From the NCBI RefSeq assembly GCF_008017545.1, contig NZ_VRTZ01000001.1, forward strand, positions 186,001 to 250,000: 64,000 bases of DNA, read 5' to 3'. Position 1 is the stretch's first letter; the number at the start of each line of letters is the position of its first letter. A program made the translations under genes and the position numbers. A model generated the notes under the pieces. That model was not told where the DNA came from. It was given only the letters and a program-made list of their open reading frames with translations, and searched no databases. This DNA is from Homoserinibacter sp. GY 40078. GTDB lineage: Bacteria > Actinomycetota > Actinomycetes > Actinomycetales > Microbacteriaceae. This document shows positions 60,053 through 63,344 of the stretch, in pieces.

Positions 60053-61372
60053 GTGACCTCACGCACCCTCGTCAAGAACCTCGCCGCCGAAGCGGACGGC
60101 CCCGTCAGCGTCTCCGGATGGGTGGAGACGGTTCGCGATCAGAAGAAGGTGCAGTTCGTCATCCTGCGTGACGAGACCGGGGCCGTGCAGCTGGTGCACC
60201 CCCGCACCGACGTGGAGGAGCCGGGCAGCGACCCGATTGCCACAGCGATCTCCGCCCTCACCCACGGCACGTTCCTCACCGTCACCGGCGAACTCAAGCA
60301 CGACGAGCGGGTCAAGCTCGGCGGACTCGAGGTGAAGATCGGCGACATCGAGGTGGCGGCGGCCGCGCTCGACCTGCCCATCGCGGATGACTCGTCCATC
60401 GACAAGCGCCTCGACTGGCGTTTCCTCGACCTGCGCCGCCCCGAGCAGAACCTCGTCTTCCGGGTTCAGACCACCTTCCTCCACGCGCTGCGCACGTGGT
60501 GGGTCGAGAACGACTTCATCGAGATCCACACGCCGAAGCTCATGGCATCCGCGTCGGAGAGTCGGGCGGAGCTCTTCGAGGTCGGCTACTTCGAGACCAA
60601 GGCCTACCTCGCGCAGAGCCCGCAGTTCTTCAAGCAGATGGCACAGCCGGCAGGGTTCGGCAAGGTGTTCGAGGTGGCGCCGGCGTTCCGGGCCGACCCG
60701 TCGTTCACGTCACGTCACGCCACCGAGTTCATCTCGGTCGACGCGGAGATCAGCTGGGTCGACTCCCACGAGGACGTCATGGCCATGCACGAGCAGCTGC
60801 TCGTCGCCGGCCTCACCGCCGTGAAGGAGAAGCACGGCGCCGAGATCGAGGCCACGTTCGGCGTCGAGATCGTCGTCCCCGCCACGCCGTTCCCGCGGAT
60901 CCCGCTCACCGAGGCCCACACGATCCTCGAGTCGCGCGGCTACACCGTGCCCCGCACGGATGGCGACCTGGACCCGGAGGGCGAGCGCCGCCTCTCGGAG
61001 TACGTGAAGGAGCAGTACGGGCACGAGTTCGTGTTCGTCACCGACTACGCGAGCGGCATCCGGCCGTTCTACCACATGCGCCACGAGGGCGACCCGAGCC
61101 TCACGAAGAGCTACGACCTGCTCTTCAACGGCACCGAGATCTCGACCGGCGCCCAGCGCGAGCACCGGGTCGATGTGCTGGTCGAGCAGGCCCGCGAGAA
61201 GGGTCTCGACCCGGAGGAGCTCGGCTTCTACCTCGACTTCTTCCGCTACGGCGTGCCCCCGCACGGCGGATTCGGCATGGGCCTCAACCGCGTCACGATG
61301 CTGATGCTGCACCAGCCGTCGATCCGCGAAGTGACCTACCTCTTCCGCGGGCCGAACCGCCTGCTGCCGTAG
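60053..61372 (+). CDS. aspS: Aspartyl-tRNA synthetase, archaeal-type short form
   Basis: A 439-residue class II synthetase. The N-terminal OB-fold (about 1-105) has VSGWVETVRDQKKVQFVILR. The catalytic core has motif 2 in VFEVAPAFRADPSFTSRH, FISVDAEISW, and motif 3 in GGFGMGLNRVTMLML. The 140-residue GAD insertion of normal bacterial AspRS is absent. This is the archaeal/eukaryal lineage, which in bacteria is often non-discriminating and charges both tRNA-Asp and tRNA-Asn, the latter corrected by GatCAB. GTG start, probably leaderless. A convergent DUF1508 gene follows after an inverted-repeat element. Confidence 0.93.
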   Translation: MTSRTLVKNLAAEADGPVSVSGWVETVRDQKKVQFVILRDETGAVQLVHPRTDVEEPGSDPIATAISALTHGTFLTVTGELKHDERVKLGGLEVKIGDIEVAAAALDLPIADDSSIDKRLDWRFLDLRRPEQNLVFRVQTTFLHALRTWWVENDFIEIHTPKLMASASESRAELFEVGYFETKAYLAQSPQFFKQMAQPAGFGKVFEVAPAFRADPSFTSRHATEFISVDAEISWVDSHEDVMAMHEQLLVAGLTAVKEKHGAEIEATFGVEIVVPATPFPRIPLTEAHTILESRGYTVPRTDGDLDPEGERRLSEYVKEQYGHEFVFVTDYASGIRPFYHMRHEGDPSLTKSYDLLFNGTEISTGAQREHRVDVLVEQAREKGLDPEELGFYLDFFRYGVPPHGGFGMGLNRVTMLMLHQPSIREVTYLFRGPNRLLP

Positions 61373-61394: not shown

Positions 61395-61458
61395 CGTGAG
61401 AGTACGCACTTCTGCGTACCGCGACGCGTGAGAGCACGCAGAAGTGCGTACTCTCACG
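61395..61458. repeat. Intergenic inverted-repeat element 3 (two direct, one inverted copy)
   Basis: Perfect 23-bp arms at 61395-61417 and 61436-61458. GTGAGAGTACGCA (61396-61408) also recurs in direct orientation with one change at 61428-61440. It lies between the convergent aspS and DUF1508 genes. No T-tract follows. Confidence 0.85.
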
Positions 61459-61475
61459 GAGCCGAGAACGGCGGG

Positions 61476-61688
61476 TCAGGCGGTTTCGCGGTAGGAGGGC
61501 TCCTGCAGCACGGTGAGGTCCTCGAGGGTTGCCCGCGGGATGGAGCGCATCACGGCCTCGACCATGGCGACCGCGGAGGCCTTCGCGACGTAGTTGCCGC
61601 TCACGGCAACCGTCTGGCCGCTCTCGGACACGATGCGCCAGAAGAACGGCTGTGTGGGGTTGTTGCTGCGAACGACTTGGAAACGCAT
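61476..61688 (-). CDS. DUF1508 / YegP-like small protein
   Basis: A 70-residue protein, FQVVRSNNPTQPFFWRIVSE and GQTVAVSGNYVAKASA, that matches the YegP/DUF1508 beta-alpha repeat unit; one repeat is present rather than the two of YegP. Function is unknown. The ATG at 61688 follows GAGGAG, and a TAGTCT -10 lies at 61727-61722, so this gene has a normal leader. Confidence 0.85.
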   Translation of the reverse strand: MRFQVVRSNNPTQPFFWRIVSESGQTVAVSGNYVAKASAVAMVEAVMRSIPRATLEDLTVLQEPSYRETA

Positions 61689-61806: not shown

Positions 61807-62103
61807 TCAGGCTCGGTAGTCGACGCAGCTGCGCGACGCGACGACCGAGCGGATGAAGGCGGCGGCCTCCACGTGCGCTGGGTGCACCTGATACGCGGCG
61901 AGATCCTCTTCGGTGGCGAAGTCCGAGTCGAGCACCACGTCCCAGTTGCCGTCGGTGGCCCCCAGGTCGATGCCCACATCGAGCCGGAGCGCAGGGACCA
62001 GTCCGCGAAGCCCTTCCAGGCGGTCGCGGATGCCGGCCGCGTCGGCAGCCCGTGCCTCCGCATCGGTCGCGGCGAGCTTCCAGCTGACGATGTGGCGGAT
62101 CAC
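61807..62103 (-). CDS. Dabb-type stress-responsive alpha/beta-barrel protein
   Basis: A 98-residue single-domain protein. VIRHIVSWKLA opens the Dabb fold, with DVVLDSDFATEEDLAAY and HPAHVEAAAFI as the conserved second half. Dimeric ferredoxin-like barrels of this type bind small hydrophobic compounds; the precise function is unknown. The GTG at 62103 overlaps the stop of the glutaredoxin-like gene (GTGA). Confidence 0.85.
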   Translation of the reverse strand: MIRHIVSWKLAATDAEARAADAAGIRDRLEGLRGLVPALRLDVGIDLGATDGNWDVVLDSDFATEEDLAAYQVHPAHVEAAAFIRSVVASRSCVDYRA

Positions 62104-62357
62104 GAGGTCGCCTCCCGGGCGTCGAGGGCGCGCCGGAGCCGATCCGGATCGACGCGCCAGATGGTGTGCACGCGGTCGTCGATGAGCAGCACGGGGATCT
62201 CCTCGGCGTACTGGGCGAGCAGGCGCTCGTCCTCGAGGATGTTGCGCTCCTCGACCTCGAGCCCGCGCTCGGCCGCCACCTCGGAGACGATCGCGCGCGC
62301 ATCGTCGCACAGGTGGCATCCGGGCTTTCCGAGAAGAGTCAGGCGCGGATCGGGCAC
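62100..62357 (-). CDS. Glutaredoxin-like (DUF836) protein
   Basis: An 85-residue thioredoxin-fold protein with the redox motif KPGCHLCDDA near the N-terminus and the cis-Pro segment EEIPVLLIDD. It resembles the glutaredoxin-like DUF836 family. Its substrate is unknown. The GTG at 62357 lies 6 nt after a TAGTCT -10 hexamer that overlaps the -10 of the divergent HAD gene. Coupled to the Dabb gene. Confidence 0.87.
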   Translation of the reverse strand: MPDPRLTLLGKPGCHLCDDARAIVSEVAAERGLEVEERNILEDERLLAQYAEEIPVLLIDDRVHTIWRVDPDRLRRALDAREATS

Positions 62358-62362
62358 GCACC

Positions 62363-62369
62363 TAGACTA
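62363..62369. promoter_or_regulatory. Symmetric overlapping divergent -10 elements
   Basis: TAGACTA read on the plus strand gives TAGACT (62363-62368), and on the minus strand TAGTCT (62369-62364). The two -10 hexamers share five bases. The minus-strand one ends 6 nt before the GTG at 62357, and the plus-strand one 9 nt before the ATG at 62378. Confidence 0.55.
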
Positions 62370-62377
62370 TGGGGGTC

Positions 62378-63145
62378 ATGCCCGAGGAACATCCCGCGAC
62401 CCCGAGCGAGCGACCGGTCGTCGCGTTCTTCGACGTCGACAACACGCTCATGCGCGGCACGAGCGTGTTCCACGTCGGACGCGAGGCGTGGTCGCACGGC
62501 ATCATCGGATGGCGGGACATCGCCCTCTTCGCGTGGCACCAGCGACGGTTCATCAAGGTCGGCGAGAACCACGAGCACATGGGCTCCGCGCGCGAGCGGG
62601 CGCTGGGGCTCGTGGCTGGGCACACCGAGAATCAGATCCGCGCGCTGGCCGAGAACATCTGGGACCACCGCATCAAGCCCAGGCTGTGGCCCGAGACGGT
62701 CGCCCTCGCGCACGAGCACATCGCGAAGGGCCATCAGGTGTGGGTCGTCTCGGCGACACCGGTAGAGGTGGGCGAGCTGATCGCGCGCAAGCTGGGGCTG
62801 ACGGGCGCGCTCGGCACCCGCGTCGAAGCAGTCGACGGCGTGTATACAGGACGCCTCGTGGGGTCCGTGCTGCACGCCGAGCACAAGGCCGTCGCGGCGC
62901 GCGAGCTCGCCGAGAGCATCGGCGCCGACCTCGCCGCATCGTGGGCGTACTCCGACAGCCGCAATGACATCCCCCTGCTCGAGCTGGTAGGCAACCGCGT
63001 CGCCGTGAACCCTGATGCCGGGCTCGCGCGGTACGCCGCCGAGAAGGGCTGGCCGACGATGCGGCTCGACCACGCGTCGATCAAGGCCCAGCAGAAGCGG
63101 GTGCGGCGCGAGGCCAAGCCGGTGGGGCGCGGCCGACGCGACTGA
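62378..63145 (+). CDS. HAD-IB family phosphatase (SerB-like)
   Basis: A 255-residue HAD hydrolase. It has motif I FFDVDNTLMRG, motif II VVSATP, a Lys in HAEHKA and motif III/IV in AYSDSRNDIPLLE. The C-terminus is Arg/Lys-rich. It belongs to subfamily IB with SerB and the CDP-alcohol-linked phosphatases; the substrate is unknown. ATG 62378 is preferred over ATG 62369 because the latter touches the -10 element. Confidence 0.88.
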   Translation: MPEEHPATPSERPVVAFFDVDNTLMRGTSVFHVGREAWSHGIIGWRDIALFAWHQRRFIKVGENHEHMGSARERALGLVAGHTENQIRALAENIWDHRIKPRLWPETVALAHEHIAKGHQVWVVSATPVEVGELIARKLGLTGALGTRVEAVDGVYTGRLVGSVLHAEHKAVAARELAESIGADLAASWAYSDSRNDIPLLELVGNRVAVNPDAGLARYAAEKGWPTMRLDHASIKAQQKRVRREAKPVGRGRRD

Positions 63146-63245: not shown

Positions 63246-63344
63246 CTACTTCTTGTTGCGACGCTGGTGACGCGTCTTGCGGAGAAGCTTGCGGTGCTTC
63301 TTCTTCGCCATGCGCTTGCGGCGCTTCTTGATGACGGAACCCAT
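63246..63344 (-). CDS. bS22-like / COX24-domain small ribosomal protein
   Basis: A 32-residue, highly basic protein, MGSVIKKRRKRMAKKKHRKL and then a further run of Arg/Lys ending QRRNKK. This is the AURKAIP1/COX24 motif found in actinobacteria and identified as ribosomal protein bS22 in mycobacteria (established for that group; applied here by similarity). The ATG at 63344 has GAGGTG upstream. Two -10 hexamers, TAGGCT (63406-63401) and TAGACT (63420-63415), stand before it. Confidence 0.88.
   Translation of the reverse strand: MGSVIKKRRKRMAKKKHRKLLRKTRHQRRNKK

Follow-up and report, generated by a model that had tools for sequence, protein, structure and literature searches.

A candidate -10 element shared by two divergent, apparently leaderless or near-leaderless genes of Homoserinibacter sp. 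GY 40078 and its relatives

Geometry of the intergenic element

The question raised by this locus of Homoserinibacter sp. GY 40078 is whether a single -10 element could serve two divergent genes whose mRNAs both begin at or very near their start codons. Within the window (the whole stretch of DNA that was analysed, 64,000 nucleotides), the start codons of two back-to-back genes are separated by a spacer of 20 bp (62358-62377), in which the symmetric heptamer TAGACTA, a sequence of the form TANNNTA, can be read at 62363-62369. Its plus strand holds a putative -10 hexamer, TAGACT (62363-62368), 9 nt 5' of the ATG codon at 62378 of a HAD-IB family hydrolase gene, and its minus strand holds another, TAGTCT (62364-62369), 6 nt 5' of the GTG codon at 62357 of a glutaredoxin-like (Glrx-like) gene; both are TANNNT sequences at -10 distance from a start codon, and five bases (62364-62368) are common to the two. 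The coordinates, the five shared bases, the two distances and the size of the gap had been given in the original prediction for this locus, and all agree with the sequence. No -35 consensus was evident by eye at a spacing of 17 bp on either side.

With 7 nt between the -10 element and the transcription start site (TSS), the optimum according to Warman et al. (2026, PMC12825309), the minus TSS is predicted to be the first base of the GTG codon (62357), which would make this mRNA leaderless. The plus TSS is predicted to lie 7 to 10 nt past the -10 element (62375-62378), which would give a leader of 0 to 3 nt. The distance from 62357 to the predicted plus TSS would then be 18 bp for a start at 62375 and as much as 21 bp for one at 62378, in a range of 7 to 25 bp between opposite-strand TSSs that was taken to define a bacterial bidirectional promoter with a shared -10 element. 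A62364 and T62368 are each used by both hexamers, in the reciprocal arrangement of -11A and -7T by which Middlemiss et al. (2023, PMC10268837) describe such promoters.

Genes and start codons

The Glrx-like (DUF836) protein of 85 amino acids is encoded on the minus strand (62100-62357) and matches PF05768 (E = 2.6e-22) with a score of 79.4 bits, above the Pfam gathering cut-off of 26. The HAD-IB family hydrolase of 255 amino acids is encoded on the plus strand (62378-63145) and matches PF12710 and TIGR01490, the latter with a score of 171.9 bits, above the NCBIfam cut-off of 98.3. Downstream of the Glrx-like gene on the minus strand is a Dabb (stress-responsive A/B barrel) gene (61807-62103; PF07876), of which the GTG start codon overlaps the Glrx-like stop codon as RTGA (62100-62103), an overlap kept in 9/9 genomes of the genus that probably reflects translational coupling.

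Both start codons are tightly bounded, because a stop codon of each reading frame falls within the box. In the Glrx-like frame a TAG stop at 62369-62367 leaves the GTG at 62357 as the sole start between the stop and the conserved core of the protein. In the HAD frame a TAG stop at 62363-62365 leaves two candidates, ATG 62369 and ATG 62378, of which the former was rejected as it overlaps the box and is unreachable for a TSS set by the box.

The original prediction had also stated that neither start codon has a ribosome-binding site, and no convincing Shine-Dalgarno sequence was found at either. The best anti-Shine-Dalgarno duplex 5' of the start is -1.8 kcal/mol for the Glrx-like gene and -4.3 kcal/mol, a middling value, for the HAD gene; the median is -3.1 for the 41 genes of the same genome sample that have TANNNT at 6 nt (see below), compared with -6.25 for the 278 other predicted genes, a figure that is biased low because it is the best over candidate starts. 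A GGGGG sequence lies 2 nt 5' of ATG 62378, closer than a normal Shine-Dalgarno sequence would be.

Signs of leaderless genes in the same genome

In Actinobacteria, leaderless genes are marked by TANNNT located some 12 bp 5' of the start codon (PMC3160421, 2011), and in Mycobacterium tuberculosis, where leaderless genes are common and the primary TSS of 505 genes lies no more than 5 bp from the start codon, TANNNT without a conserved -35 element is the usual -10 element (Cortes et al. 2013, PMC3898074). Its use in mycobacteria is confirmed by PMC4128351 and PMC10937400, in the available parts of which nothing was found on a shared -10 element. The Homoserinibacter genome was sampled over 464 kb (the window and 20 other stretches), in which a simple gene caller predicted 319 genes. 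TANNNT peaks exactly 6 nt before candidate start codons, with 41 occurrences, whereas the remaining 30 spacings between 0 and 30 nt average 2.6. Of the 52 adjacent divergent pairs listed in the 464 kb, 5 carry a box for each gene, and the two boxes overlap at the TAGACTA locus only. Separate TANNNT boxes at leaderless distance on both sides are found in the window between 59909 and 60053 and between 44186 and 44270, and elsewhere in the sample at L231:10114/10163 and L232:3855/3919.

Conservation within the genus

The pattern CAY-N5-TANNNTA-N5..8-RTG occurs at 2 places in the whole genome, versus 8 for the reversed control, so the bare motif is at chance level genome-wide and carries no evidence by itself. 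The second match, at C1:1146501 (= L230:6501), lies inside a mechanically called ORF of 449 aa and was taken to be a chance occurrence; a near-match at L227:9445 has no predicted plus-side start codon in range.

The divergent gene pair together with CCTAGACTATG is kept in 9/9 genomes of the genus that were searched, TAGACTA itself included. In these nine genomes 18 of the 20 intergenic columns are invariant, versus 12 of 102 four-fold degenerate sites in the flanking genes (6/30 in the Glrx-like gene and 6/72 in the HAD gene; Fisher p = 8.7e-12). Coding constraint was ruled out as an explanation for this conserved stretch, there being a stop codon in the box in both frames. As far as sequence comparison goes, it is the conserved position of the element, not its motif, that lifts it far above chance.

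The chance frequency of the bare pattern bears on the possibility that transcription in one direction only uses the site, the other gene being served by an upstream promoter within the coding sequence of its neighbour, and its matching hexamer being accidental. Such an accident would come easily, since a single A after TANNNT automatically creates a reverse TANNNT. The outer bases of the heptamer argue otherwise: T62363, which only the plus hexamer needs, and A62369, which only the minus hexamer needs, are both kept in all nine genomes. The behaviour of the two boxes in more distant relatives, described next, also speaks against an accident.

The gene pair in other genomes

Homologous loci were collected from a family sample, in which 86 of 249 genomes matched at E <= 1e-60, from an order sample, in which 106 of 248 matched at E <= 1e-40 and 30 of the loci were laid out, and from a further sample of 80 named contigs. 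The Glrx-like gene is divergent and adjacent at 191 of 199 HAD loci, and 162 distinct pairs remained after identical regions had been removed.

TANNNT is present 4 to 11 nt before an in-frame start codon of the HAD gene in 161/162 pairs, and likewise of the Glrx-like gene in 161/162 pairs, the pairs being phylogenetically related rather than independent and the starts being picked among in-frame candidates by the presence of a box, a freedom that was given equally to the controls. Six control motifs free of overlap with the common forms of the box (TANNNA, TTNNNA, AANNNT, ATNNNT, TNANNT and ATNNNA) were found in 4 to 19 of the 162. Two further controls gave higher counts (TNNANT, 99 for HAD and 16 for Glrx-like; TNNNAT, 42 and 10), which we attribute to their overlap with common forms of the box. 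The Glrx-like spacing is nearly uniform, at 6 nt in 143 pairs, 7 nt in 14, 8 nt in 3 and 5 nt in 1; the HAD spacing is 7 nt in 61 pairs, 6 nt in 46, 9 nt in 32, 8 nt in 16, 10 nt in 5 and 11 nt in 1.

In the relatives whose two boxes lie apart, the box of each gene stays at the fixed distance typical of that gene. Neither box therefore has the look of an accident, and the use of TAGACTA in one direction only is very unlikely. The claim of a shared -10 element for two leaderless genes has strong support from the 162 pairs and from the 6-nt peak in the genome itself as regards the sharing and a leaderless or near-leaderless state. For the HAD gene it has to be softened: its 9-nt spacing in Homoserinibacter exceeds the commonest values of 6 and 7 nt, its mRNA may carry a leader of 2 to 3 nt, and given the predicted range of 0 to 3 nt, near-leaderless is the safer term.

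Outside the order, a HAD box at leaderless distance is present in 14 of 22 loci (the set comprised 23 loci, of which one proved to be from the same order and has both boxes), and none of the five divergent Glrx-like neighbours there (0/5) has a box at leaderless distance. At L245, L252, L253, L258 and L259, all outside the order, such a box precedes the HAD gene but is missing before its divergent Glrx-like neighbour. The leaderless state of the Glrx-like gene may be a trait gained inside the order, and since no Glrx-like box at leaderless distance was seen in the five neighbours outside it, the double-leaderless state would not be class-wide; as far as this small sample indicates, it extends no further than the order.

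Separate and overlapping boxes

Both boxes are present in 160 pairs. In 129 of these, the box positions are at least 11 bp apart, and the boxes are separate. In the other 31 the boxes overlap, and they do so in two registers only: +1, in which the boxes share five bases as TANNNTA (27 pairs, with the element in the same place as TAGACTA), and -4, in which they share two bases as ANNNTANNNT (4 pairs). With 7 nt from the -10 element to the TSS, these registers predict TSSs 18 bp (+1) and 23 bp (-4) apart. In E. coli bidirectional promoters, 18 bp is the commonest distance between TSSs, and 10 and 23 bp are also common (Warman et al. 2026, PMC12825309); the distance of 18 bp is explained by the reciprocal pairing of -7T and -11A (Middlemiss et al. 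2023, PMC10268837). The predicted distances, 18 bp in this genome and 23 bp in the four pairs of the -4 register, are thus like those of E. coli.

The comparison with relatives also bears on whether the palindrome could be the binding site of a regulator instead of a -10 element. Its symmetry and its strong conservation in the genus would suit a regulator. In relatives, two TANNNT boxes stand in place of the single motif, each still at its distance from its start codon, and the palindrome is lost; a regulatory palindrome was rejected on the ground that it vanishes while the boxes stay, and we regard it as extremely improbable.

The shared or separate state of the boxes changes at least 8 times on a quick tree of the HAD proteins, in which several inner branches are weakly supported, so the shared-box class recurs. 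The five-base class is found in Homoserinibacter and its congeners, in a Schumannella-like clade, in L039 and L041, and in a Salinibacterium/Rhodoglobus clade; the two-base class is found in L062 and in L099, L103 and L106. Protaetiibacter mangrovi and Homoserinibacter gongjuensis are cultured relatives with the shared box. The comparison points to several events in which two separate promoters became one, or one became two again, gain and loss being indistinguishable on the tree. It is a real possibility, to which we give a little less than even weight, that the leaderless promoters of this one conserved divergent pair have fused more than once in the Microbacteriaceae into a single -10 element, always in one of two registers that share consensus bases, so that one melting site would produce two mutually exclusive mRNAs starting at start codons and the spacer DNA would be reduced to the promoter core.

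Proposed mechanism

The reading that best accommodates the positions, conservation and spacings described above is that TAGACTA is very probably the core of a bidirectional promoter of the sigma-A type with two leaderless or near-leaderless outputs. RNA polymerase would melt the heptamer in either orientation, because TANNNTA holds TANNNT on both strands, and the critical bases of one strand, -11A and -7T, would pair with those of the other. The leftward mRNA would begin at, or within about a base of, the Glrx-like GTG codon and would probably continue into Dabb as the second gene of the transcript, and the rightward mRNA would begin 0 to 3 nt before the HAD-IB ATG codon. Both mRNAs would be translated by leaderless initiation, without a Shine-Dalgarno sequence. 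The arrangement probably arose when the spacer separating two ancestral leaderless promoters, once longer, shrank until their -10 boxes fused.

The original prediction went further in proposing that the choice made by the polymerase decides which protein is made. Such an antagonistic switch, in which firing one way excludes the other and the two proteins are inversely regulated, has in its favour that five physically shared bases make simultaneous occupancy impossible and that in E. coli interference does occur when one direction is strongly activated. It occurs only then: at all five E. coli bidirectional promoters tested, the basal level of transcription was insufficient for the two directions to compete (Warman et al. 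2026, PMC12825309), which leaves the proposal unsupported. Moreover, the two separate boxes of 129/160 relatives indicate that sharing is unnecessary for function, which argues against a needed switch, and we consider a switch unlikely at this locus.

Comparison with known promoters

The TAGACTA site resembles the bidirectional promoters of bacteria (Warman et al. 2021; Warman et al. 2026, PMC12825309; Middlemiss et al. 2023, PMC10268837) in its one near-symmetric -10 element and reciprocal -11A and -7T. Enterobacterial bidirectional promoters are defined by mapped TSSs, whereas the TAGACTA site is known from sequence alone; unlike them, it has the TANNNT -10 element of Actinobacteria, and both of its products are apparently leaderless protein-coding mRNAs. 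The word leaderless is absent from the main text of both PMC12825309 and PMC10268837. The site also resembles the leaderless genes of Actinobacteria (PMC3160421; Cortes et al. 2013, PMC3898074), with TANNNT at -10 distance and neither a Shine-Dalgarno sequence nor a conserved -35 element; the parts of these papers that were available describe such genes singly, whereas here one pair of hexamers would serve two start codons. Closely juxtaposed divergent promoters are common in the M. tuberculosis genome, and prpD (Rv1130) and Rv1129c are divergent neighbours there, like the two genes at TAGACTA, for which both leaderless TSSs have been mapped (PMC3898074). No shared -10 element is stated for that pair in the available part of the report, and the likeness is one of description, not of compared sequence.

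No earlier report of a -10 element shared by two leaderless genes was found in the open-access literature, in which a search joining leaderless genes with bidirectional promoters brought up one archaeal paper and PMC3898074 and nothing on point. Searches for a transcriptome study of the genus found none, and a search for the M. tuberculosis homologue gave one paper, on a different subject. Two features already known, leaderless genes and bidirectional promoters, would come together here at a single conserved site. The same gene pair offers a natural comparison set of separate boxes (129 pairs), two-base overlaps (4) and five-base overlaps (27), a series that lends itself to asking directly whether two genes with a shared -10 element are thereby put in competition, and how bidirectional promoters are gained and lost.

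Other features of the window

A long inverted repeat with arms GTGAGAGTACGCACTTCTGCGT and their complement is present at 61395-61460, between convergent genes at 60053-61372 (plus strand) and 61476-61688 (minus strand). Five places in the 464-kb sample, among them this one, have a 16-base core of an arm in two inverted copies about 41 bp apart, and the repeat looks like a dispersed hairpin element. On the minus strand at 63246-63344, a very basic ORF of 32 amino acids was read by eye, which we take to resemble the small actinobacterial ribosomal protein bS22.
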